A stretch of DNA of 32,571 nucleotides, from IMG/VR virus record IMGVR_UViG_3300021478_000088, positions 1 to 32,571 of that record; one strand, written 5' to 3'. The notes beneath the pieces are model-generated. The model worked only from the letters and a program-made list of their open reading frames with translations. It was not told where the DNA came from and did not search any database. A program made the translations under genes and the position numbers. The DNA comes from a virus. Shown in pieces: positions 16,892 through 29,954 of the stretch (the first letter of the stretch is position 1; the number at the start of each line of letters is the position of its first letter).

Positions 16892-17362
16892 TCAGTACCC
16901 CAAATATACGGTGCAACCGCCGGTGAGCCCGACTTGGTAGACCTTCGAGATCAGCGTCGCGTGCCAAATGTTGGTCGCGAGCGGGAGCGGCTGGTTGACC
17001 TGCCCCGCCTTCCCCGCGCTGCCCGCGAAGTCCACGTAGACGGTGCCCTTCGTGTTGGAGCCGCAGTCGAGGAGGATCGCCTTCGCATACCGCGCGCCCG
17101 ACGAATACCACCCGCCATCCGTCACGGCGCCGTCGGCGAGCGTCGCGTCGATGTAGCCGAGGGGCTGCGGCTCGACGTCGGTAACGAACTCCGCCTGGAT
17201 GATCGCGCCGTTGTAGTCGGCGTTCCCTGAAGTGGCGCCCAGCTTCGGCCCGGATGGCGGCGCCGGCTCGCGCTCGTCATGCCCGCACGCCTCGACGGTG
17301 ACCGTGAGCGCGAGCGCGACGACCGACAGAAGCGTGGCCCCTGCGCGCGTGTGGCTTCGCAT
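16892..17362 (-). CDS. Lipoprotein-like protein within the virion operon
   Basis: A 156-residue protein. Residues 1-26 form a signal peptide: basic start (MRSHTRAG), hydrophobic core (ATLLSVVALALTVTV) and a cysteine at 26 in VEAC, a lipobox-like end whose -2 Glu is unusual. A Pro/charged linker follows, then a beta-rich domain (NADYNGAIIQAEFV, QPLGYIDATLADGA, VYQVGLTGGCTVYLGY). It would be exported and, if the lipobox works, fixed to a membrane. It lies between gp36-like and gp10-like genes with two bases to its upstream neighbour, so it is expressed with the virion genes. Superinfection exclusion is one possible role. Confidence 0.65.
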   Translation of the reverse strand: MRSHTRAGATLLSVVALALTVTVEACGHDEREPAPPSGPKLGATSGNADYNGAIIQAEFVTDVEPQPLGYIDATLADGAVTDGGWYSSGARYAKAILLDCGSNTKGTVYVDFAGSAGKAGQVNQPLPLATNIWHATLISKVYQVGLTGGCTVYLGY

Positions 17363-18720: not shown

Positions 18721-19524
18721 CTAGGCGGCTTCGCCGAGTCGTTGGAGGGCGAGCGCGAAGCGCTCAGCGACCGCCGTGGGATTGAGTCCGTGAACCTTGA
18801 GGAACACGTTCACCGGCTTGTCCTTCTTCTTCGCGTTGCAACGCTCGCAGGCCGGGGCGATGTTGCAGGGCCCGTGACGCCCGCCGCGCACGATCGGGAC
18901 GACGTGGTCCATCTCCGTGTCTTGGTCAGTGACCGCGTTCCCGCAGTACGCGCAGCAGCAACCGAAGGCGTTGCAGATGGCGATCCATTGCGTTGGCGTG
19001 AGCCCGTCGTCCACCGAGAGCATCCGCGCGCGGCGCTTCTCGTTGTTCAGGCGGATGATCATTCGGCCGCGGTGAGTGGCGGCCCATGCGGCCCTGCGCG
19101 CCCGCCGCTTCGCGAGATTGGCCTTCCCCTTGGGACCGGCGAGCCACTTACGCCGTTCAGCGTTTCGCTTCGCGCGGTACGAGGGATCGGTCGCGATTCG
19201 CTCTCGCTCACGAGCTACGTCGGCCGCTCTCTTTTCCTCCCGAGCGCCCGCTGCCTGGACCTTCGCCCGATAGACAGGGTCGCTGGCGTAGCGCTCGCGA
19301 CGCCTCGCGTTATTCCGTGCCTTGCTCTCCCGCTTCGCGTTCTTCGCGGTCGCGCGCTGAGCATCGCAAGCCTTGCACGGCATTTGAACGCCGTACGTGA
19401 TGAACCTGCGTGAGCCCTCCGCCGCCGGGTAGAAGTCGTCCGCTTTGGACTTCTCCTCCCGGCAACGGGTGCAGACAAGACGGCTCGTATCTGCTGGCTG
19501 TTGGACCACACGGCGAAACACCAT
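18721..19524 (-). CDS. HNH endonuclease with N-terminal zinc ribbon
   Basis: A 267-residue protein from the ATG at 19524 (a TTG at 19545 would add seven residues). The C-terminal region (about residues 169-240) is a classical HNH domain: CAYCGN, then MDHVVPIVRGG, then CNIAPACERCNAKKKDKP, with two CxxC pairs for structural zinc and the DH and N catalytic positions. N-terminal CTRC and CKAC form another zinc ribbon, and the middle is a very basic helical linker for DNA contact. It separates the capsid gene from the connector genes and has its own promoter-like sequence, as expected for a homing endonuclease. A role in packaging, as for HK97 gp74, is less likely because it is far from the terminase genes. 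Confidence 0.82.
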   Translation of the reverse strand: MVFRRVVQQPADTSRLVCTRCREEKSKADDFYPAAEGSRRFITYGVQMPCKACDAQRATAKNAKRESKARNNARRRERYASDPVYRAKVQAAGAREEKRAADVARERERIATDPSYRAKRNAERRKWLAGPKGKANLAKRRARRAAWAATHRGRMIIRLNNEKRRARMLSVDDGLTPTQWIAICNAFGCCCAYCGNAVTDQDTEMDHVVPIVRGGRHGPCNIAPACERCNAKKKDKPVNVFLKVHGLNPTAVAERFALALQRLGEAA

Positions 19525-19559
19525 GCAGCCCAATCTAACCAACAAATGGTAGCGCGCAA
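19522..19559 (-). promoter_or_regulatory. Putative promoter of the second HNH gene
   Basis: On the minus strand TTGCGC (19559-19554), a 16-base spacer and TAGATT (19537-19532) precede the ATG at 19524 by seven bases. The -10 sequence and the spacer length are identical to those of the two plus-strand promoters at 30057 and 31767. If used, the mRNA would be leaderless or nearly so, and there is indeed no ribosome site before this ATG. Confidence 0.45.
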
Positions 19560-19605: not shown

Positions 19606-20910
19606 TCATTGATACGCGCCAGCAATCAGTCCGCCCACAAGGCCCGAGGTCATGACCTCGGCATCGTTGTGAACCGCGACCAATTGGGAGCCACCCATGC
19701 TCCCGCGGAACTGGTTGAAGAACTCGCGGATCACGAAGCCGCCGGACGCCTGGCCGTCGGCGAGGCCGTTCGCGGCGTTCCACCGGAAGGTGTAGCTCGT
19801 CGCGATGTCGTCCTGCGAGGTCGGCGGCATCTGGTCCGGCTGGCGGATCAGGATGCAGCTCGTGCCCCACATGAACGTGAGCCCGCCGCCGTTCGGCGAG
19901 TAGTACTTCATGCGGCCGACGTAGATGGGCGGCAGCTCGAGGAGCCCGGCCATCGCCTCGGGGCCCGGGATCGGCGCTGCGCCAATCTTGTACGTGATGT
20001 ACTTTTGGACCGCGGGGTTCCGCTGGAAGGCGTGCCAGAGCGGCTCCGCCATGATGATGCCGGAGATCTCACCGAGCGACTGCTCGATGCGGCCGTGCAG
20101 GTCCTTGATCGGGTCCGAGCTCCCGCCGCCGTCCCACTGGAAACCGGCGCCGAGGGTGACGACGTTGTTCGAGTTCCAGTTGCCGGCCGTCGTGAGGAGG
20201 TTCGCGACGCGGAGCTCCCGGCGCATCAGGAGCGCGATGAGGACGCGCTTCAGGGTCGCCTGCCGGATCTTGAGCGGCGCGTCCGCGTTCGCCTCGACCT
20301 GCGTCGGGACGAAGCCGCCGAGCGCGAACTCCACCGTGGAGAACGGCGTGTTGGACAGCCGCGGGTTGACCTCGGGCACCTGCGCGCCGCCGGCGCCCAT
20401 GATGGGCTCGACGAGCTGGAAGGCGTCCTTGTCGGAGAAGATCCAGTACTTGTCCGACTGCTTGTTGACGATCACCGGGGGCGAGCCCATGTCGGCGATC
20501 GGCTTGAAGTTCCGGTAGCCGCCCGCGAAGTTGGGCAGGCCCGACTGGATGTGGACGTCGCTCGGGCCGAGGTCCGCGAACTGCGCGGAGCGCGCGCGCT
20601 CCGCGAAGTTGATGCTCGAGGGGGGCTGGTAGCCCGCCATGCTGAAGGCCTGACCTCCGCCTTTGCCGACGGCGCCGAGGGTGTTCAGCGCGTCGAAGCC
20701 GCCGCGATAGGCGTTGCCCATCAGCTGGAGCGACTCGCCGTGCATCCAGTCGGCGCACATCTTGTGGATGGTTTCGTCGCGCGTGTCGTCCTTGACCGAC
20801 CACTTTGCGAGCTGGTTGCCGGCGGCGTCGTAGACGTAGCCGTTGTTGAAGTCCATGTGCGTCGCGGTCGGGAACGCGGCGCTCGTAAACTGGATGACTT
20901 GAGCTCGCAT
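19606..20910 (-). CDS. Major capsid protein
   Basis: A 434-residue protein with the size and position of a major capsid protein: it follows protease/scaffold and decoration genes. Seen are an E-loop-like region (NKQSDKYWIFSDKDAF), a conserved APLKIRQATLKRVLIALLMR segment, LRVANLLTTAGNWNSNNVVT, a P-domain/A-domain sequence IIMAEPLWHAFQRNPAVQKY, and the C-terminal FRWNAANGLADGQASGGFVI. These fit the HK97-fold capsid proteins of Mu-like and related phages. The start at ATG 20910 is chosen because GGAG lies five bases upstream; a longer frame to 21000 reads through leader sequence. Cleavage of the N-terminus by the protease is possible but no site is evident. Confidence 0.85.
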   Translation of the reverse strand: MRAQVIQFTSAAFPTATHMDFNNGYVYDAAGNQLAKWSVKDDTRDETIHKMCADWMHGESLQLMGNAYRGGFDALNTLGAVGKGGGQAFSMAGYQPPSSINFAERARSAQFADLGPSDVHIQSGLPNFAGGYRNFKPIADMGSPPVIVNKQSDKYWIFSDKDAFQLVEPIMGAGGAQVPEVNPRLSNTPFSTVEFALGGFVPTQVEANADAPLKIRQATLKRVLIALLMRRELRVANLLTTAGNWNSNNVVTLGAGFQWDGGGSSDPIKDLHGRIEQSLGEISGIIMAEPLWHAFQRNPAVQKYITYKIGAAPIPGPEAMAGLLELPPIYVGRMKYYSPNGGGLTFMWGTSCILIRQPDQMPPTSQDDIATSYTFRWNAANGLADGQASGGFVIREFFNQFRGSMGGSQLVAVHNDAEVMTSGLVGGLIAGAYQ

Positions 20911-21026
20911 GTGATCTCCGTGGTGAGGGATGAGGGCGTGGCTGTCCGACCGCGGAGGGGTTCGCTCCGACTCGCGGAAAACGGCGCGCCCTGCCGACAA
21001 CGGCGAGCGCAGTGAGGGGTGAGGTT

Positions 21027-21079: not shown

Positions 21080-21532
21080 TTAGACCGCGACCTGGCCCGC
21101 GCTGAGCATCACGAGGATCTGGTCGCCCGCGGCGCCGGCCTGCGTGAGCGCAATACCGAGGACGACGGCGGCCGAGGCGTACGTCTTCACGTTGCCCGGC
21201 GTCGTGTTGTCGGCCATCACCTGCGCGTTGACGTTGATCGCCGCGGTGGCGATGCAGACCGCGAGCGGTCCAAAGAACCGAACGCGCCCCGCGGTGCCAG
21301 GCGTTCCCGCGGCGGCGCCGGCCTTGATGATCTCGAGCGTGACTCCGACGCAGCGGACGCCGCCGCCGGACGGGAGGATGACGCCGAGGCCGTCGATCGT
21401 TTGCGAGGCGGAGTTGTAGTAGGTCGTGTCGATCTGGACGAGGAAGTTGGCGGGGATGTCCGTGCCGCTGTAGTTCGCGACCGGCATGTCGAGGTCGTAA
21501 CCGTTCTCCGCGATCTGCAGATTCAGAGCCAT
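21080..21532 (-). CDS. Head decoration / capsid stabilising protein
   Basis: A 150-residue beta-rich protein between the protease-scaffold and the capsid genes, the usual site of a decoration protein. It has repeated short strands with small residues: YDLDMPVANYSGTDIPANFL, GRVRFFGPLAVCIATAAINV and VKTYASAAVVLGIALTQAGA, ending DQILVMLSAGQVAV. That pattern, with a V-G-V-A-L-like segment near the C-terminus, is typical of DUF2190-type cement proteins that bind capsid capsomers. GGAGATC lies before the ATG. The functional call is by position and fold-like pattern. Confidence 0.7.
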   Translation of the reverse strand: MALNLQIAENGYDLDMPVANYSGTDIPANFLVQIDTTYYNSASQTIDGLGVILPSGGGVRCVGVTLEIIKAGAAAGTPGTAGRVRFFGPLAVCIATAAINVNAQVMADNTTPGNVKTYASAAVVLGIALTQAGAAGDQILVMLSAGQVAV

Positions 21533-21663: not shown

Positions 21664-22305
21664 TCAGACGGCGACGTCGAGGGCGAGGTATTCCTTCGCC
21701 GCCTTGATGAGCTGCTGCTCGCTCATCCGGAGCACCATGGCCTGCGCCTCGCCGAGCGAGACCCGGCCCGTGCGCGCGATCGCATGGGAGAGCGCGACCT
21801 GATCGATCTTCACCTTCTCGGGGTCACCGACGCGGGCGACCGTGGGCTCGCGGGTGTTGCCGCCGGCGACGATCGTGCGGCCGAGGTGTTGCTTGTCCTT
21901 CGGGACCTTCGGGTAGTACGCCGCGAACGCCGCCGGGCAGTTCGTGCGGTACTCCGTCAGCTGGGCGCGCATCTCTTCCTTCGCGCCCTTCGTGTCGGAG
22001 TAGAAGGCGATCGCGTCGGTCACGTCCTGATCGATCGTGGCCTTCGCGTGCTCGTCGAGAAGGACCTGCTGGTCGGCCAGCTTCTTTCGAAGCGCCGTGA
22101 GCTCCGCATCCTGGAGCGAGAACTTCGTCGTCAGGTCGGTCGCCGCCTTCTCGGCCGCGGCGCGCGCGGTCTTCTCCGCCGCGAGGTTCTGCTCGCTGAG
22201 CGTGAGCTTCTGGGTGACCTCGGAGAGGTCGGTGCTCGCCTTGACGAGCTTGGTCTGAGTCTCGCTGAGGAGCGTCGTCACCTTGTTCTCATCGCTCATG
22301 GACAT
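21664..22305 (-). CDS. Nested scaffold protein from an internal start
   Basis: Within the fusion gene, codon 865 is ATG (22305) preceded by GGGAGAC, a good ribosome site, with a second ATG two codons later. Initiation there would give a separate 213-residue product containing the coiled coil (SDENKVTTLLSETQTKLVKA onward) and the C-terminal domain. In Mu the scaffold gpZ is made in this way from inside the protease gene I, and lambda Nu3 is nested in C likewise. The acidic linker just before (TSDEGDLDGSTGD) marks a domain boundary. The inference is good but not proved by sequence alone. Confidence 0.6.
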   Translation of the reverse strand: MSMSDENKVTTLLSETQTKLVKASTDLSEVTQKLTLSEQNLAAEKTARAAAEKAATDLTTKFSLQDAELTALRKKLADQQVLLDEHAKATIDQDVTDAIAFYSDTKGAKEEMRAQLTEYRTNCPAAFAAYYPKVPKDKQHLGRTIVAGGNTREPTVARVGDPEKVKIDQVALSHAIARTGRVSLGEAQAMVLRMSEQQLIKAAKEYLALDVAV

Positions 22306-24897
22306 GTCTCCCGTGGATCCGTCGAGGTCGCCCTCGTCGGAGGTGTTGAGGCCGTCGGGAGACCCGCCGGCGTGGTACTCGAGTTCGTGTTCGCGGATCG
22401 CCGCGTCGATGAGCTCTTGGACGATGTCGAACACGCCCTCGTCCCACTTCGCCCCGGGGGGCGCGTTGACGAGGTCGCGGAGTCCAAAGCAGTACTTGGC
22501 GAGGCTCGTGCCCTGGTGCATCCCGTTCGGGTCACCGCCGCACGCCGCGAACTTGTCGCGCAAATTGTCGAGGTGCTCGGAGCACTCCGCCGCCGGCGCG
22601 AGCTCGTGCAGACCGAAGATCTGTTTGATCTTCGGCATGTACTCGTGGCTTGCGTGCGCGAAGCCCGCGCGCGTAGACATGAGCGACAGCTGCCGCGGCG
22701 CGGGCGTCGTCGCCGTCTCCTTCTGGTTCTCGCTCGCGACGAGGCGCGCGAGGTCCAGGAACGGCTGGTTCGTGAGTCCCGCGGACGAGAGGCGCGCACC
22801 GATCGGCTCGCCCGTCACCTTGTCCTTCGCCCCAAACCGGATCGCGGGCGAGATGCCCTGGTACTCGCCCGACCGGATGTAGCCGCGCGCCTTCTCGCCC
22901 CACGCGACGTGGCCCCAGAGGTGGCCGCGGTCGTCGAGCCGGAGGTCGTGGATCCAGCCGCACGCGGGCGTCCCGTCGACCGGGATGTTCCCCGAGGCCG
23001 GGTCCTGCTCGGACGCGTGGTTGAAGTCGATCGGGATGTTGCGGTTCGGGTTCTTCGCTTTGTCGGCGTAGAAGTTCCGCACCATCTCGGCGAAGACGCC
23101 GGGGGTGAGATTGATGTCGCCGGCGGGGTGCCCCTTGTAGTGGCCGGGCGCGCCGAGCTCGATCCAAACCTTGCGGTCCGTCTCGGACATCTTCGCGGCG
23201 GCGATCGTCTCCTCGCTGAGAGAGATGATGTCGCCGATCGCGCGGGGTCCAAGCTGGCTCATGAGAGATCGCACGTGGATATGCCCGCCCTTTCCGAGCT
23301 CGCCGTGGATACGGACGCGCCCGCCGCCGGTCTTCTTCGGCGCGTACTTGGATTGGACGCCGAGCTCCCGCGCGCGCCGCGCGATGTTGCGCTTCGCCTC
23401 GCGGTACTTCGCGCCGCTGATCGCCCCCTTGCTCTTCTCGCCCTCGAGCCGCGCCGCCGCGTTGTGCACGTGGGTCGCGTCTTCGATCGGGTACTTCTTC
23501 TCCTTCGGGAGGGCGAAGTGCTCCTTCGGGATGCGCTTGCGAGCTTTGGCGGTGAGGACGCTCATCTGCTTGGGCTCGGTGGCGGGTCCACGGCGGTAGC
23601 GCGCGCTGCCGGAGGTGACGTGGACGTCGCCCGGGCCGATGTCGGCGAAGCCGTGCGCGAGGTCGAACGCCCCCAAGTCGAGGAGGTGCTTGACCGTCGC
23701 GCCGTACAGCCGCGCCTGCGCGAGGAGGTCGCCCGGCCGCATCCATGCGGTGCGCGTGTTCGGCTCAAGCGCCTGCGCGTCGCCGGTCCAGCCGCAAACC
23801 CGGAAGACGGAGACCTTGCGGCCGTCGGTCGGCGACTTGATGTCGCAAACGTGGATGCACCCGGCGTTGACGCTGTTCGGGTCGGTCTTGAGCGCCAGCG
23901 CGGCAGCGATACCGGTCTCCTCGCGGAGTTCTCGGATCGCCGCCTTCAGCGCGTCCTCTCCCGGATCGACGAGCCCGCCTGGGATCGCCATCTCGTGGGG
24001 CGGCTCCGGGCGGGAGACCGTGAGCACCTCCCCCTGGACGTTGACGACGATCGCGAGCGCGGCGTCGCCCTCGCGCCAGCGCCGTTCCTCTGCGTCGGAG
24101 AATGGCGCTCCCGCCGCGGCGTAATGTCGGTCGTACGCGCGCTCGACGGCCGATTGCACCTGACCGATCCAAAGCGGACAGCTCGGATGATGCACGCCCG
24201 AGAAGACGCCGACGCCGCGCATCCCGAACGGCTTCTGACCATCGTGCCACGCGAAGTTCTTGCAGCGCCCGCAGGAGACCTGCTCGCGCGAATACTCGCC
24301 GAAGCCGCGCGTCGCCACGTTCGTGGGGTGCTCGTCGGTCGCTCCGCCCTCGTCGAACGGCTTCGACGGATCGGACCGGGACGTGTGGTGCTTCGACGAG
24401 CCCTTCTTCTGGGCGCTATGCAGATGCGTCCAGGGACCCTCGGGGACCGGGACCTTGCAGATGAACGCGAGTACCGGCCTGCCGAGCAGCTCGCAGGCGA
24501 GCGTGCGGTGGTGACCGTCGATGATCTCCAGCTTCGGGTTGCCCGGCCGCTGGACGAGGACGACGGGCTTGTTCTTCTCGTCCGCGAGCTTCTTCGCGAA
24601 GTGAGCGACTTTGCCGTCGGTGCTGGCCGTCCACGAGTCGCGTGTGGAGAAGTCGATCTGGCTGAGATCGACTTCGACCGGACCGCGCCAGTGCCCCGCG
24701 AGCACCCACGCCAGGTCGCGCGCCGGATAGTCGTCGAGTAGCTGCTCGTAGACTACGCGCGCCGGATGCGCGTCGGGGCGCGCGTCCGCCATGAGGACGG
24801 CGCGGTGCTCATTCGCGAGCGCCCGCTCTTCGGCGCAGGCGACGAAGGTGTCGTCCGGCCACACGAGGGACGCGGCGACGATTTGCGGTCGCGTCAT
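21664..24897 (-). CDS. Fusion protein: ParB-like, Nudix, Mu-gpI-type protease and scaffold
   Basis: A 1077-residue protein with at least five parts. Residues 70-150 are a ParB/sulfiredoxin-like domain with IDGHHRTLA (126-134). Residues 205-245 have CGRC and a later HHPSC, a possible zinc site. Residues 275-400 are a Nudix hydrolase with a complete Nudix box at 308-330 (G-x5-E-x7-REL-x-EE-x-G-I). Residues 445-515 resemble DUF6582 (HFALPKEKKYPIEDATHVHN). Residues 575-720 match the Mu gpI protease (WIELGAPGHYKGHPAGDINL, IPIDFNHASEQDP, YQGISPAIRFG). Residues 870-950 are a coiled coil and, with the rest, the scaffold. It should process and assemble the procapsid. The Nudix and ParB parts are not expected in an assembly protease. 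Confidence 0.82.
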   Translation of the reverse strand: MTRPQIVAASLVWPDDTFVACAEERALANEHRAVLMADARPDAHPARVVYEQLLDDYPARDLAWVLAGHWRGPVEVDLSQIDFSTRDSWTASTDGKVAHFAKKLADEKNKPVVLVQRPGNPKLEIIDGHHRTLACELLGRPVLAFICKVPVPEGPWTHLHSAQKKGSSKHHTSRSDPSKPFDEGGATDEHPTNVATRGFGEYSREQVSCGRCKNFAWHDGQKPFGMRGVGVFSGVHHPSCPLWIGQVQSAVERAYDRHYAAAGAPFSDAEERRWREGDAALAIVVNVQGEVLTVSRPEPPHEMAIPGGLVDPGEDALKAAIRELREETGIAAALALKTDPNSVNAGCIHVCDIKSPTDGRKVSVFRVCGWTGDAQALEPNTRTAWMRPGDLLAQARLYGATVKHLLDLGAFDLAHGFADIGPGDVHVTSGSARYRRGPATEPKQMSVLTAKARKRIPKEHFALPKEKKYPIEDATHVHNAAARLEGEKSKGAISGAKYREAKRNIARRARELGVQSKYAPKKTGGGRVRIHGELGKGGHIHVRSLMSQLGPRAIGDIISLSEETIAAAKMSETDRKVWIELGAPGHYKGHPAGDINLTPGVFAEMVRNFYADKAKNPNRNIPIDFNHASEQDPASGNIPVDGTPACGWIHDLRLDDRGHLWGHVAWGEKARGYIRSGEYQGISPAIRFGAKDKVTGEPIGARLSSAGLTNQPFLDLARLVASENQKETATTPAPRQLSLMSTRAGFAHASHEYMPKIKQIFGLHELAPAAECSEHLDNLRDKFAACGGDPNGMHQGTSLAKYCFGLRDLVNAPPGAKWDEGVFDIVQELIDAAIREHELEYHAGGSPDGLNTSDEGDLDGSTGDMSMSDENKVTTLLSETQTKLVKASTDLSEVTQKLTLSEQNLAAEKTARAAAEKAATDLTTKFSLQDAELTALRKKLADQQVLLDEHAKATIDQDVTDAIAFYSDTKGAKEEMRAQLTEYRTNCPAAFAAYYPKVPKDKQHLGRTIVAGGNTREPTVARVGDPEKVKIDQVALSHAIARTGRVSLGEAQAMVLRMSEQQLIKAAKEYLALDVAV

Positions 24898-24902
24898 TAG
24901 GA

Positions 24903-24981
24903 TGGCCCTCGCCGCTGGAATCGAACCAGCGCTACGCTCCCCAGTCGTCCGCGCGCTTTCCTACCAATGAGCCCCGCGGGC
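24903..24981 (-). tRNA. Degenerate tRNA-like element, possibly tRNA-Pro(GGG)
   Basis: The minus strand has a perfect T arm (GCTGG TTCGATT CCAGC), a D-arm-like GCTCATTGGTAGG with the GG pair, an anticodon-loop-like CTGGGGA with U33 and GGG, and an acceptor pairing of GCCCGCG with CGAGGGC (one mismatch). A CCA is encoded at 24903-24905 if the end is read one way. However, the anticodon stem pairs only three of five positions, there are extra bases between D arm and anticodon stem, and two extra bases lie between T arm and acceptor. It looks like a damaged tRNA or a tRNA mimic, not an ordinary gene. It fills the gap between the lipoprotein-like gene and the fusion gene. Confidence 0.4.
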
Positions 24982-25017
24982 GGCTGACGAGCCGCACCGA
25001 GCGCGAGGCTGGGGGGC

Positions 25018-25641
25018 TCACTGGATCGTCGAGTAGCAAGTGAGGATGCCCTGCGGCACGCCCACGCCCGTCGAGGTCTTCGTGATCGAGACGGTGATCT
25101 GGTCGCCCGGTGCGACGAACGCGCCCGTGACCGGCGGGATGACAACGTTCTGCCAGGCAAACCAGCTGCCCGTCGAAGGGGCGTCCGCCGCAGCGTCGAG
25201 CATGTTCGTCGTCGTGGACGCCGAGGCGATGAGCGTCGGGCCGACACCGCCGTCCGGGTTATTGCCCGGACGCTTGTAGACGTTCAGCGTCGCGTAGGTG
25301 GTCTGCGACGCCGTGAGCGCCGCGCTCGTCACGAACTGGCACTGCGAGACGGGGATCGAGAGCGGTCCCGGTCCAATCCCGTCGACGGGGATCTCCGTAA
25401 GCGAACCGCCCGAGTCGGTCCCGTCCGCCCAGTTCTTGTTCCACTCGAAGAGCCCCTGCTCGACGACTTGGCTGCCGACCGAGTTGACGTAGTTCACGTC
25501 GAGCCCGAGCTTGTGACCCGAGGCGCTGGGCGGAGGCGTCGTCTGCGCCGGCGGATTGGCCGTCTGGCACGCGACGGAGCCGACGAGCACGGAGAGGCAC
25601 ACCGCCATCACGGAGCTGACCAGGATTCGGAACGGGTTCAT
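25018..25641 (-). CDS. Lipoprotein-like protein with virion-type beta domain
   Basis: A 207-residue protein. Residues 1-25 are a signal peptide: NPFRILVSSVMAVCLSVLVG, then SVAC with Cys25 as possible lipid site (the Ser at -3 is atypical). A Pro/Thr linker follows. The C-terminal 110 residues (VTSAALTASQTTYATLNVYK, then SWFAWQNVVIPPV, then GDQITVSITKTSTGVGVPQG) closely resemble a beta-sandwich domain seen in phage head-fibre and virion surface proteins. An export signal on such a domain is unusual. GAGGA precedes the ATG. It sits between portal and protease genes where Mu carries the minor head gene F. Confidence 0.65.
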   Translation of the reverse strand: MNPFRILVSSVMAVCLSVLVGSVACQTANPPAQTTPPPSASGHKLGLDVNYVNSVGSQVVEQGLFEWNKNWADGTDSGGSLTEIPVDGIGPGPLSIPVSQCQFVTSAALTASQTTYATLNVYKRPGNNPDGGVGPTLIASASTTTNMLDAAADAPSTGSWFAWQNVVIPPVTGAFVAPGDQITVSITKTSTGVGVPQGILTCYSTIQ

Positions 25642-25667: not shown

Positions 25668-27422
25668 TTACTCGGCAGCCTGTTCGGTCTCACCCCGCAC
25701 GGGGCGATCGGGTCGGTTGGGTCGGTCGCCAGACGTGGAGCCGGTCGGCTCGTCGTCCGGCTCGTCGTTTTCGTCGTCGGGGTTGTCCCCGCCCTCCGGC
25801 GGCTCGGTGCCGTCCGGAGAGGCAGGCGGCGTGGCAGGCGCGGCCGCCGTGAGCTTGATCGGCTCGTCGTCCTCGTCGTCCTTGTCGACCAGCTTCGCGC
25901 CTGCGCGCTCGGCCACGTCCTTTTTGGACCAGGGGACGCCGACGCCGGCGAGCTTGATCGCGAGGTCCGCGAGCTCTTTCGCGGAGAGGTCCTCGTTCAC
26001 GTTCAGACCGAGGCGAGGACAGAGCCGCTCCTCGCATCCCGGCCAGTTGAGCCGCACGATCCACTTGACGAGGTCGCGCTCGAGCGAGTCGCAAACCGCC
26101 TTCGCGTCGTACGTCGAGAGCTTGAGCGTGCCGCGCTCGGCCACCTCGCTCGCGCTCCGCGCTCCCGTCTTCCCCGGCTGCGTCGTGTAGTCCTGCCCGA
26201 GCAGGCCCTTCGACATCTGCCCGTCGAGGAACGAGATAAACTTCTCCGCGTCCATCGTGGACGCGCCCTTCAGGATCTCGATCTTGCAGGCGTCCGGAAG
26301 GACGGCGGAGTTCAGCGACCCGAGACCGAGCGCCTTCGTGGCCTCGTTGAGCCGCTGGATGTCGACCGTCGAGGCGGGGACCGGCGTGTCCTTCTCCTCG
26401 TCGCGGGAGAAGTAGCCGACGATGAGCGGGCGGACCGTGCGCTCGAAGTCCTGCGCGACCGCGCGGACGACCATGCGCTTGAGCATCATGTAGGACGCGA
26501 TGAAGCGTCCCTCGCCGTCGCGCGTCGGGTACTCGCCCGAGAGCGTCGGCGCGTGAATGATGAACTTCCCGGGGAAGTCCGCCATCCGCAGGCCGTACAC
26601 GCCCGTTGTCGGTCCCATGTACGACATGCCAGGGCCGACGAGCCCCTGGTCCCAAACGTGGAGGTCCCACGTCGTGGGGTTCGAATAGTTGAGCCGACGC
26701 GAGTGGATCGAGTGGAGCCCGCGCGGGCGCCACAAGTCCGTCTTCGTCCACTCGATCTCCGATGCGGAGAGGCCGGTGATAATCCCCCAGGCCAGCTGGA
26801 AGAGCGCCTGCGACCACCGCGGGATCGCGGAGATCATCGCCTCGACCTGCTTGGCGATCTCCTTCGCCTTCTCGAGGTCGGGGTCCCCGTCGGGGAGCGA
26901 CGCCGGCAGGACCTGCAGCTTGCCGCAGGCGACGTTCAGGACGCGCTGTCGAGCGACCCCGTGCGCGTGCGGGTCGTGCTCGAAGAGCTCCGACAGAACG
27001 TCGACGAACTGGTACCGCAGCCCGTAGGTGCAGTTCCGAAACGTCGAGGCGAGGTAATTGAGGGAGAGGTTCCCTCCAATGACGATCGGCGTCCGATCGA
27101 TGATCGGCGCCGGCGCGAGCAGGCGCTGCGCCGCCGACGACCCGTCCCCCCACTGCTCGTCGCGGGAGTAGCCTCCCGGGATGAGCGGCGCCGAGCCCTG
27201 GTTGGGCCAGCGGCGTCCGCTTCCGTCCGAGGCGCCACCGACGGCGACGGGGAGCTGCTCGCCGAGCGGGCCGTACGTGCCGCCGCGGAGATCGTTCGGG
27301 CTCTCCCGCGCCGTTTGGGCCGGGGCGGGGTTGGCGACGAGCGCGCCGGGCGCGGGCTCTGTCGCGAACAGCGTACCGAACCCGCCGAAGCCGGTCATGC
27401 CTTCGGTGTCGGAGTTCGGCAT
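25668..27422 (-). CDS. Portal protein (Mu gp29 / DUF935-like)
   Basis: A 584-residue portal. Family features are the stem/clip region with LSELFEHDPHAHGVARQRVL, MISAIPRWSQALFQLAWGII, SEIEWTKTDLWRPRGLHSIH, and RPLIVGYFSRDEEKDTPVPA, all as in the Mu gp29 group. The C-terminal 80 residues are acidic and disordered (many Asp, Glu, Pro) and the first 60 also look disordered. The portal forms the DNA entry ring at one capsid vertex and docks the terminase. The start at 27422 lacks a good ribosome site; the ATG at 27398 has GAAGG before it and may be the true start. Confidence 0.88.
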   Translation of the reverse strand: MPNSDTEGMTGFGGFGTLFATEPAPGALVANPAPAQTARESPNDLRGGTYGPLGEQLPVAVGGASDGSGRRWPNQGSAPLIPGGYSRDEQWGDGSSAAQRLLAPAPIIDRTPIVIGGNLSLNYLASTFRNCTYGLRYQFVDVLSELFEHDPHAHGVARQRVLNVACGKLQVLPASLPDGDPDLEKAKEIAKQVEAMISAIPRWSQALFQLAWGIITGLSASEIEWTKTDLWRPRGLHSIHSRRLNYSNPTTWDLHVWDQGLVGPGMSYMGPTTGVYGLRMADFPGKFIIHAPTLSGEYPTRDGEGRFIASYMMLKRMVVRAVAQDFERTVRPLIVGYFSRDEEKDTPVPASTVDIQRLNEATKALGLGSLNSAVLPDACKIEILKGASTMDAEKFISFLDGQMSKGLLGQDYTTQPGKTGARSASEVAERGTLKLSTYDAKAVCDSLERDLVKWIVRLNWPGCEERLCPRLGLNVNEDLSAKELADLAIKLAGVGVPWSKKDVAERAGAKLVDKDDEDDEPIKLTAAAPATPPASPDGTEPPEGGDNPDDENDEPDDEPTGSTSGDRPNRPDRPVRGETEQAAE

Positions 27423-27569: not shown

Positions 27570-29177
27570 CTAACGCTCGGCTAGCGGCGATTCGTAGAGC
27601 TGAATCGGGTCCTCCAATTCAGTTTCGTCGTCATCGCCCGCGAAGCCGCGCTTGCGCCCCTGCCAGATCGACAGCGCGAGCGAGTCGGCGAGGTCCGGGC
27701 TGCGCCCGATGCGGCTCTTCACGTCGTCTTTCGACTCGACTTGGTAGCGGCCACGCGCGTCGAACGTGTACGTCGGGTCGAGAAGTTCCTGCTCAAGGGC
27801 CGGCTGCGCGTCGAGGACCCCCTCCTCGTCCAGCCATTCCTGGACCCCGATCGCCAGCTGCGACCGTAGATTGTGGAAGCGCGAGTCGTCGTCCGCACGC
27901 TCGGAGACGTTGACCTCAATGACCGTGATGGTGAACCCCTTGGGGACGAGTCCCCGCCGGCGGCGATCGTTGGCCACCTTTCGGAACTCGCGCGCCGTCC
28001 GTCGAAGTTGGTCGGCGACCCCGCCACCGACGCCGATGACGTCGATCTTGACGTGGACCTCCTCGCCGTCGAACGCGTGCTCGCGCGCGACCGCGACGAC
28101 GCGCGACGCGACCGAGACCGTGTCGCGCCGGTCGAACCCGTCGGCGTCCTTCCTGCCCTCGGCGCTCGGGTCCTTGCCGATCATGACGTGCGGGTAGACG
28201 CGGGGGCCGCGGCGGGGGGTGATGACCGACTTGTCGTCGCCGAAGCGCGCGACGTCGACGCCGAGGTCGAGGTCGTATTCGCTGCGCCAACGCTCCTCGT
28301 CCTCCGGGGTCGCCGCGGCCGCTCGCGCCGTCGCCTTCTCGAGCGTGACGAGCGAGACGACGTTGTTCGCGCCGCTCGCGGGGAAGTTCCCCAGTACGCG
28401 GACCTGATAGCTGAGGCTGTCACGGCCCCACTGCTCGAGTCGGCGCCGCGTGAATTCCTTGTCCGCAAGGCCCTTGATCCCGGTCTCGGATGCCTCCTCC
28501 CCCGAGAGGGTGAAGAGCTTGAAGAACTGCCGCTCCGCGTGGAACGCCCGGTAGAACCGCCCGCTCGTCCGGGTCGGGTTGCTCGACATTACGAGGCGCG
28601 CCTTGCCGGCGCGGTTCCCCTCGATGGCCTCGAACATCGGGTCGCCAATGCCGCTGGCCTCGTCGGCAAGCCAGAGCATCTCGGGCGACGAGATGCCGGC
28701 CATCGCCTCCGGTTTCGCCTTGGCGAGCCCCTTCGCTTCGCGTCCATCCGCGAAGCGAAGCCCGGTGCGGTGGTCGATCGCGAGCTCGCCGCCGAGGAGC
28801 GCGCGGACGCGCGGCGTATAGAGCCGCGTCATCTCCTTCCAGAGCGTGTCGCGGATCGAGTCGTCCGTCGCCGACGTCATGATGACGCGGGCGCGTTTAC
28901 GCGTGGCGACGAACCAGAGCGCCGCGCAGATGAGCAGCGTCGTCTTGCCGGTCTTCTGCCCGCTCTTGATCGCGACGTCGAGGTTGTCGCGGATCGCTTC
29001 GAGGATCTCGGCCTGGCGGTGCCAGAGCGTGACCCCGAGGATATCGCGCGCGAACCCGACCGGGTCGTCGTAGTACTTCGCGAAGAGCTCGGGCCCCTTC
29101 ACTTGTCGCGCGGCGCGACGCTTCGCGGCCACCCGCGCGAAGGTCGGCTTTGGGCTGAACGTCGTCCTCGTTCGCAT
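27570..29177 (-). CDS. Terminase large subunit
   Basis: A 535-residue packaging motor. The ATPase half has Walker A SGQKTGKTT (72-80), Walker B MLWLADEA (167-174, acidic D172/E173) and the coupling motif SSNPT (199-203). The nuclease half has the three acidic sites of the RNase H fold: D308 in GVDVARFG, D379 in KIDVIGVGGG and D495/D498 in SPDLADSL. All key residues are present, so it should be active in DNA translocation and headful or site-specific cutting. It follows TerS after 24 bases. No strong ribosome site precedes the ATG; coupling to TerS is likely. Confidence 0.93.
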   Translation of the reverse strand: MRTRTTFSPKPTFARVAAKRRAARQVKGPELFAKYYDDPVGFARDILGVTLWHRQAEILEAIRDNLDVAIKSGQKTGKTTLLICAALWFVATRKRARVIMTSATDDSIRDTLWKEMTRLYTPRVRALLGGELAIDHRTGLRFADGREAKGLAKAKPEAMAGISSPEMLWLADEASGIGDPMFEAIEGNRAGKARLVMSSNPTRTSGRFYRAFHAERQFFKLFTLSGEEASETGIKGLADKEFTRRRLEQWGRDSLSYQVRVLGNFPASGANNVVSLVTLEKATARAAAATPEDEERWRSEYDLDLGVDVARFGDDKSVITPRRGPRVYPHVMIGKDPSAEGRKDADGFDRRDTVSVASRVVAVAREHAFDGEEVHVKIDVIGVGGGVADQLRRTAREFRKVANDRRRRGLVPKGFTITVIEVNVSERADDDSRFHNLRSQLAIGVQEWLDEEGVLDAQPALEQELLDPTYTFDARGRYQVESKDDVKSRIGRSPDLADSLALSIWQGRKRGFAGDDDETELEDPIQLYESPLAER

Positions 29178-29201: not shown

Positions 29202-29954
29202 TCACTCGGCGGCGTTCGCGGAATCGCCCTCTTCCGTCGCGATGATCGCCGACTCCACGAGGTCGTAGAGCTCCGGCGGCAGCTTCTTCTCGAGCTTCTC
29301 GAGGAGCTGCTCCATCTCCTTCTCGAGCTTCACGTTCACCACTTGCTGCGGCGCAAACTCGTCGGGGTAGAGGCGCTCCAGCACCGTGAGCTCCGCCTTC
29401 CAATCACGGTCCCCACTGTTGAGGACCCCTTTGCGGATGCGCTCGATGGCCTGCTTCTTGTAACGCGCGCGCGCATACGTGAGGGCTTCTCCAAAATCGG
29501 AGTAGCGGGCGTCGCCCTCGCGCCCCTTCTGGAGCCACTCGGACAACGTCGCCTGCGAGATCCCGTTCGCCTCCGCGGCGATGGCAAACGTCGCCCCTTC
29601 TTCCACGTCCTTCAGCAGAGACTCGCGCAGCTCCGCGGTGAACATCGACGGCCGCCCGCGCCTGCTCTTTGCGGCTGGTTTGGCTTCGCCGCAGGTAGTC
29701 GGCGCCTTCTTCTTGGACACCTTTGCGGGCGCCACGGTGGTTGTCGCAGTCGTTTCGGTCGCCAGCGGCGGTTTCGACGACTTCGAGCGGTTGTCGCTCT
29801 TCGCCGCTCCTGAGGTCCTCAGGTACTTCGTGACGGCGGCTTTCGAGACCTGGACGCCGCGTTCCTTCGCGCACCATTCCGCGATGATGCGGTGCGATTC
29901 GCCTGCGTCCGCTTTGGCCCGAATCTCCTTCCCGAGGCTCTCGGTGATCTTCAT
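29202..29954 (-). CDS. Terminase small subunit, helix-turn-helix type
   Basis: A 250-residue protein directly upstream of the large subunit. It has two helix-turn-helix-like stretches: residues 1-50 (KEIRAKADAGESHRIIAEWC, then VSKAAVTKYLRTSG) and about 100-145 (SMFTAELRESLLKDVEEGAT, then NGISQATLSEWLQKGREGD), separated by a Lys/Thr/Ala linker. The later segment ARYKKQAIERIRKGVLNSGD with DWKAELTVLERLYPDEFAPQ is typical of small terminases, and a coiled coil (LEKEMEQLLEKLEKKLPPE) ends the protein, fit for oligomerisation. It would bind the packaging start site and recruit the large subunit. GAGG is placed five bases before the ATG. Confidence 0.78.
   Translation of the reverse strand: MKITESLGKEIRAKADAGESHRIIAEWCAKERGVQVSKAAVTKYLRTSGAAKSDNRSKSSKPPLATETTATTTVAPAKVSKKKAPTTCGEAKPAAKSRRGRPSMFTAELRESLLKDVEEGATFAIAAEANGISQATLSEWLQKGREGDARYSDFGEALTYARARYKKQAIERIRKGVLNSGDRDWKAELTVLERLYPDEFAPQQVVNVKLEKEMEQLLEKLEKKLPPELYDLVESAIIATEEGDSANAAE

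Follow-up and report, generated by a model that had tools for sequence, protein, structure and literature searches.

The virus record IMGVR_UViG_3300021478_000088 of IMG/VR comprises 32,571 bases, and this whole stretch is referred to here as the window. One gene of its late head operon joins a ParB/sulfiredoxin (Srx)-fold module, a linker, a Nudix domain, a DUF6582 segment, a Mu gpI-type head maturation protease and a scaffold part in a single polypeptide (Table 1). The gene is placed between the portal and the major head protein, as expected for a Mu-type protease. The original prediction, made from the sequence alone, described this fusion and suggested that the N-terminal part might be ejected, packaged or cleaved off, acting on nucleotides or host DNA early in infection. 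The comparison with related loci suggests that the two N-terminal domains are a head cargo that is not bound to one carrier.

Table 1. Features of the fusion gene and of its head gene neighbourhood in the window (positions are those of the window; residues are those of the fusion protein).
Feature	Position	Strand or placement	Basis
Fusion gene: ParB/Srx module, linker, Nudix, DUF6582, Mu gpI-type protease, scaffold	21664..24897	-	1077 amino acids, ATG start, stop-free
ParB/Srx-fold module, residues 21-165	24403..24837	-	AlphaFold2, PDB matches, SerK profile match
DGHHR motif, residues 127-131	24505..24519	-	Sequence; 74-row alignment
Linker, residues 166-266	24100..24402	-	Low predicted local distance difference test (pLDDT) score
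Nudix domain, residues 278-393	23719..24066	-	PF00293, E 2e-16, above cut-off
Nudix box, residues 308-330	23908..23976	-	Complete G(5x)E(7x)RE(2x)EE(1x)G
DUF6582 segment, residues 453-515	23353..23541	-	PF20223, E 4e-7, above cut-off
Mu gpI-type head maturation protease, residues 568-782	22552..23196	-	PF10123, E 6e-23; phrog_328, E 1e-24
GGGAG, Shine-Dalgarno-like	22308..22312	-	8 nt before internal ATG
Codon 867 ATG, candidate scaffold start	22297..22299	-	Shine-Dalgarno-like site and ATG at scaffold boundary
Coiled-coil-like scaffold and C-terminal part, residues 867-1077	21667..22299	-	Position, lower conservation; by analogy with Mu gpI/Z
Small terminase subunit	29202-29954	Upstream of fusion gene	Pfam/PHROGs
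Large-terminase-like gene	27570-29177	Upstream of fusion gene	Pfam/PHROGs
Mu-type portal	25668..27422	-	PF06074, E 8e-47; same protein bears a C-terminal ParB module in L007 and L158
Lipoprotein-like gene	25018..25641	-	Between portal and protease; homologues in L002, L007, L158 and L173
Cement-like protein	21080-21532	Downstream of fusion gene	Pfam/PHROGs
Major head protein	19606-21000	Downstream of fusion gene	PHROGs

The open reading frame (ORF) is continuous in two records. A 69.8-kb contig (L001/G001) carries the same unbroken ORF, with 99.994% DNA identity across 16.8 kb; this contig may share its sample with the window and is perhaps not independent. The stretch from Nudix to scaffold is unbroken and collinear in three related loci, L002 (72% protein identity), L007 and L158, which excludes the reading error between residues 430 and 560 that had been considered as a way of fusing two separate genes. 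When the six frames of residues 1-452 were compared by codon scoring, with a codon table whose training set was residues 278-1077 plus three further genes, the annotated frame came first in all eight scored segments, and the signal was weakest at residues 216-266, within the linker. Among the phages found, the ParB part joined to the Nudix-protease was seen in the window phage only. With at least two effector-type domains in one late phage protein, the gene product has the multidomain character of the polyvalent proteins, and it may, like them, be packaged in the head and delivered.

The N-terminal domain had been called ParB-like from the string IDGHHRTLA (residues 126-134). Plain Pfam searches gave no ParB match in the fusion protein at E ≤ 1 and the best PHROGs match of this part reached only E 0.07; the assignment is carried by a structure model, by matches to solved structures and by an 11-row profile. 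In the AlphaFold2 model, built with 11 related rows, residues 21-160 are confident, with block means of pLDDT of 85-98. Foldseek returned nothing at E ≤ 0.001, the best match being PadC at 1.7e-3. The VIA-align list holds 31 entries with Z of 5 or more, of which 30 belong by title to the ParB/Srx superfamily and the other is the untitled ParB-like 1vk1; the Z scores are 8.4 for PadC, 8.0 for sulfiredoxin, about 7.5 for ParB and 6.4 for SerK. The nearest solved sequences to the 11-row profile are 1vk1 and SerK (E 3e-7 to 9e-7; SerK 6e-7), followed by SbnI (1e-3) and by Noc/ParB (0.02 and worse). The module is thus, as judged from model and profile, of the ParB/Srx fold, a Z near 8 being weak by itself and the profile E-values agreeing with it. 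By profile, it is nearer the nucleotide-using SerK/SbnI kinases than the ParB clamps. The suggested action on host DNA is for that reason not favoured, although certain proteins of the ParB/Srx fold are reported to be nucleases (PMC5512222).

Three more specific identities were considered for the module; none has the support of profile matches, and that of a DdrB-type ParB is rejected. A canonical partition ParB is not indicated, as neither a helix-turn-helix nor a C-terminal dimer profile matched within the 1077 residues (Pfam E ≤ 1, NCBIfam E ≤ 0.1), and the ParB fold is followed by linker, Nudix and protease in place of these domains. The full SerK-type kinase model NF053625 scored 13.5 bits against a cut-off of 380, and the DdrB-type ParB (PF18763) matched none of six module-holding records at E ≤ 1. 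Residues D127, G128, H129, H130 and R131 are constant across the 74 aligned rows, a constancy that is partly imposed, because the scan pattern demanded DGHHR.

The Nudix, DUF6582-like and Mu gpI-type protease parts of the original prediction were all recovered by Pfam. The catalytic residues of the Nudix box are kept in all four aligned sequences (window, L002, L007 and L158), and the box of L002 departs at one non-catalytic position. Between window and L002 the ratio of nonsynonymous to synonymous substitution rates (dN/dS) is 0.30 for the Nudix domain and 0.29 for the protease; as measured by this ratio, the Nudix domain is under selective constraint like that of the protease. Its best PDB matches include an 8-oxo-dGTPase domain as well as an ADP-ribose pyrophosphatase, and they do not point to one substrate. 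The DUF6582 segment is present in L002 and L007 and absent from L158, and its comparison with phage records gave two weak matches, both in Komagataeibacter phages. The linker ahead of the Nudix domain has no homologue among the loci searched. It contains a Cys/His cluster of the form CxxC...HH..C (C209, C212, H236, H237 and C241), which is a possible metal site.

The protease match to PF10123 scored 82.2 bits against a cut-off of 25.2, with a Pfam span of residues 612-782. In Mu, the scaffold gene Z starts inside the protease gene I. A Shine-Dalgarno-like site followed by ATG lies near the scaffold boundary in all four genes examined, at codon 867 in the window, 590 in L002, 633 in L007 and 543 in L158, where GGAG stands 9 nt before the ATG. 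Taking the genes in that order, it is the only such site seen to be common to the first three compared. An internal start for a separate scaffold protein is likely in the fusion gene, to judge from this recurrence.

The carrier of the ParB module differs between the window phage and its relatives. In L007 and L158 the order is a portal with a C-terminal ParB module, a lipoprotein-like gene and a Nudix-protease-scaffold gene. The protease gene of L002 begins at the Nudix domain, and no ParB module was found in its 22-kb record. In a tree of 75 modules, that of the window forms the sister branch of those carried by the L158 and L007 portals, with support of 100/99. Consequently, the module probably moved from the portal C-terminus to the protease N-terminus in the window line, which is the simplest history that the tree suggests. 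A further relative, L173, has a Mu-type portal (by linkage) with a lipoprotein-like gene behind it, and its module groups elsewhere in the tree; a single clade of the window, L007, L158 and L173 modules is neither shown nor rejected (p of the approximately unbiased test 0.26). In L158, the Nudix part is matched as well by phrog_15528, which is a portal profile of PHROGs.

The wider family of the module was collected by scanning 2.9 million viral contigs with the module alone. The scan gave 152 relatives, and the best 80 were kept, corresponding to 79 loci and 73 distinct ORFs after leaving out five near-copies (L113, L139, L153, L176 and L186) and the window phage itself (L124). Five of the 73 (L108, L117, L118, L125 and L184) sit in contigs found earlier, including the contigs of four query rows. 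A portal-type region lies ahead of the module in 52 of the 73 ORFs, all from uncultured phages: 41 were recognized by the iterated Phage_portal profile and, by linkage, six are DUF4055-type, two Portal_Mu and three Phage_portal_3. An all-versus-all comparison of the parts preceding the module yielded a component of 44, with a portal region in 41 of them (not in L144, L145 and L159). One further group is formed by L115, L120 and L130, with a weak portal match in L120 (19.8 bits), and L161, L169 and L171 remained ungrouped.

The partners of the module on the same polypeptide were identified by Pfam at E ≤ 0.01 on 72 of the 73 ORFs (38 + 34; L175 was dropped as near to L150). Phage_portal was found in 40 (21 + 19), MuF in 15 (9 + 6), NUDIX in 18 (6 + 12), 2H phosphoesterase in 7 (3 + 4) and ADP-ribosyltransferase in 3 (2 + 1), and a Mu-type protease in none of the 72. 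PHROGs searches on 38 ORFs matched the ParB-like phrog_1033 in 27 and phrog_595, annotated as head maturation protease, in 10. The latter ORFs are not counted as protease carriers, because in the five matching of eight that were re-scanned the match falls on a MuF-like stretch. A regular expression for the Nudix box was found in 18 of the 73 ORFs; in 14 of them it lies 88-193 residues behind DGHHR and in four 206-396 residues ahead of it, and in the window it lies 181 residues behind.

Early scans for related loci gave one to three loci each, and 70 of the 73 loci of a Nudix-led scan were generic Nudix genes. These 70 served as a control: 11 of their ORFs exceed 600 residues, and among five kinds, each scanned through one representative, only an XkdF-type gene showed a head domain, below cut-off. 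The control is rough, because it was pattern-picked. That gene, a 619-residue ORF in L022-L025, has an XkdF-type protease (21.1 bits, cut-off 24) followed by a Nudix domain and is another protease-Nudix fusion. Scans of genome contigs returned no relatives among 80 and 203 pattern matches; the patterns were narrow and do not show absence from prophages.

Several large proteins found in the scans combine domains of similar kinds. In L145 (5128-9933) the ParB module occurs with 2H and ADP-ribosyltransferase domains. L060 (5572-9762) encodes Nudix, a weak GNAT-like match and a polyvalent kinase domain, and L056 (4948-7518) encodes 2H, two Nudix stretches and DUF5661. L100 (4336-6378), to which L101-L107 are related, combines a ParB domain of greater distance with a cytidylyltransferase-like domain; a C-terminal tail with MYHWCANMKGGKK is common to L100, L105 and L106. 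In L087 (3859-8707) a ParB fusion, placed by its N-terminal part among the DUF4055-type portals, is followed by a separate MuF gene and by a gene with an ADP-ribosyltransferase domain, so that several head-effector types stand in a row.

The original prediction also noted that no recognizable minor head protein gpF lies between portal and protease, where it placed a lipoprotein-like gene and a tRNA-like element. The first observation holds: PF04233 (gpF/MuF) gave nothing over cut-off in the four records G000-G003, all possibly fragments. In the window it gave one chance-level match over 38 positions, with a stop inside and on the opposite strand, and in G001-G003 none; as a control, it was found in 6 of 14 genomes. 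The L002 and L007 records and the short L158 and L173 records yielded no MuF, and two of eight further module-holding records do have it. The missing gpF does not, therefore, explain the ParB part; as far as these profile searches show, other phages share the lack, and it may have no connection with the fusion.

The lipoprotein-like gene was confirmed, and its homologues hold the same position in L002, L007, L158 and L173. In the window and in L158 (6475-7125) it begins with a stretch resembling a signal peptide and lipobox; the homologues in L002 (5263-5694) and L007 (6632-7063) begin straight at the mature part. The model of its product is of low confidence (pLDDT 56). The tRNA-like element, on the other hand, was not borne out: ARAGORN found none, Rfam none at gathering, the best tRNA-type score reached 14.7 where the cut-off is 47, and the folding of the gap does not surpass that of shuffled sequences. 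The gap (24898-25017, minus strand), which precedes the fusion gene, contains a hairpin like a tRNA T-arm (GCTGGTTCGATTCCAGC) and no tRNA gene.

Elsewhere in the structural block, a second lipoprotein-like ORF (16892-17362, minus strand) has no PHROGs match and seems to lack a counterpart in the corresponding place of L002. An HNH endonuclease gene (18721-19545, minus strand) directly follows the major head protein gene and is probably an inserted mobile gene, since it is apparently missing from that place in L002. IMG/VR records are often fragments. Positions 16800-69763 of the second contig (L088-L090) reach about 53 kb past the window end, and genes for a DnaB-like helicase and an integrase are found there; the window phage is thus at least about 85 kb long and probably temperate.

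Considered together, these observations suggest that the ParB module and the Nudix domain are a portable head cargo that would be packaged, probably ejected, and act on nucleotides early in infection. We give this reading a probability of about 0.6. Packaging or ejection is the best supported of the fates first suggested for the N-terminal part, because in many phages the ParB module is found as a fusion partner of portals, of MuF and of further head proteins. Packaging, cleavage, ejection, the substrate and a role against host defence or in host takeover are what we infer from these arrangements. The scaffold part would dock the protease, and the protease part would bring the N-terminal cargo into the procapsid. 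With an internal start, most of the scaffold would be made free of cargo, and the cargo would therefore enter in the low copy number of a protease. Then, maturation proteolysis may free the cargo within the head. The freed cargo would leave with the DNA and target the nucleotides of the new host or its nucleotide signals. A broader proposal is made tentatively, at somewhat less than even odds: a widespread and hitherto undescribed SerK-like ParB/Srx family may serve as exchangeable cargo, carried by several types of portal, by MuF fusions or by the protease or occurring alone, often beside a Nudix domain, and the pair would be injected to modify or destroy, within minutes of the start of infection, the nucleotide signals on which host defence relies.

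Several points weigh against the cargo reading. L002 does without the ParB part, as far as its 22-kb record extends. Fewer than 150 residues precede the module in 12 of the 73 ORFs, where it is solo or otherwise placed, and a tether is thus not always required. No relative of the module was found in 50,697 phage records (tblastn, four queries) nor in plasmids (one query), so that there is nothing experimental to borrow. The catalytic E30 of SerK aligns, in the profile alignment, to residue 93 of the module, which is H in 47 of the 74 rows; at residue 94, one position further on, E occurs in 37, Q in 20 and D in 14. A SerK-like chemistry of the ParB part is doubtful on this alignment.

Both domains could instead work in assembly, where nucleotide binding or hydrolysis would gate the protease or report DNA packaging and nothing would be delivered. 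The window phage has them fused to the very enzyme that needs timing control, and Nudix is present on all four protease genes compared. The ParB module, on the other hand, is found on the portal in L007 and L158, and elsewhere on several portal types, in MuF fusions and alone, and is missing from the L002 record. A module that roams among carriers in this way is unlike a protease regulator, and its other partners are nucleotide- or NAD-using domains of effector type (2H in 7 and ADP-ribosyltransferase in 3 of the 72 ORFs), which makes an assembly role unlikely. It is less likely still that cleavage releases the N-terminal part for a late action in the producing cell, without its ever entering virions. 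Phage Nudix and nucleotide-metabolism enzymes are generally known to act often in the infected cell, and some modules lack a long partner; against this, a location within the head is favoured by the late position in the head operon and by the repeated covalent tether to the portal, a protein that remains in the virion.

An inert hitchhiker, joined by chance recombination and with decaying domains, would agree with the linker, which has no homologue among the loci searched and the weakest codon signal of the segments scored, and with the lack of the ParB part in L002. The explanation is improbable, as the Nudix constraint equals that of the protease, the catalytic letters are intact in all four sequences, the ParB motif positions are intact and the module is predicted with confidence to fold. 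An error of frame or assembly joining a ParB gene to a Nudix-protease gene is the least credible of all, for although no other phage with ParB on the protease was found and the coding signal is weakest at residues 216-266, the second contig (perhaps of the same sample) has the same ORF and the annotated frame is still the best of six there.

If the cargo reading is correct, the cargo module is not bound to one carrier, being on the portal in two relatives, on the protease in the window and not found in the fourth. Closely related ParB modules on different carriers constitute a natural experiment in which the head interior, and not the carrier, would be what matters. The 73 distinct ORFs are named places where the ParB fold and Nudix chemistry in virions can be probed. 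The portal C-terminus or the protease N-terminus would, in addition, provide a natural tag for loading enzymes into heads.

The fusion gene can be compared with several known systems. Like Mu gpI/gpZ (PF10123), it encodes protease and scaffold in one gene, after a Mu-type portal and before the major head protein; unlike in Mu, the protease is preceded by about 550 further residues that hold the ParB/Srx, Nudix and DUF6582 parts. MuF polymorphic toxins reportedly carry effector domains on a head protein (PMC5576092), as the window gene does, but the searches of the window phage gave no MuF. In the polyvalent proteins, such as DdrB of P1, several effector-type domains and the ParB/Srx fold are likewise found in one late protein; DdrB is processed and packaged, and the portals described there carry 2H, PBECR or InPase and not a ParB of the window type (PMC5512222). 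The free-serine kinases SerK and SbnI (PMC5120207) are the best match among solved structures and have DGHHR in common with the module; however, only about 70 positions match, and the position aligned to E30 has not retained this residue. A 2025 survey of the ParB-CTPase fold (PMC12704722) describes the same fold as a fusion-prone module binding nucleoside triphosphates, in phages too, and its main text contains no 'portal', 'Nudix' or 'MuF'. No report of the ParB module on portals or proteases was found in that text or among the titles and opening lines of abstracts searched. Fusions of Nudix to MuF, to the portal and to a capsid-processing serine peptidase were described in 2022, with packaging and injection proposed (PMC9503650, section 3.5.2); they resemble the window gene in the Nudix domain on a head maturation protease, and that section mentions neither a ParB-like partner nor movement between portal and protease. 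Of the two enzyme-like domains that the original prediction held to be unexpected, Nudix on the head protease is therefore already published, whereas the ParB-like part on the protease is new as far as searched, and the ParB module possibly represents an undescribed family.

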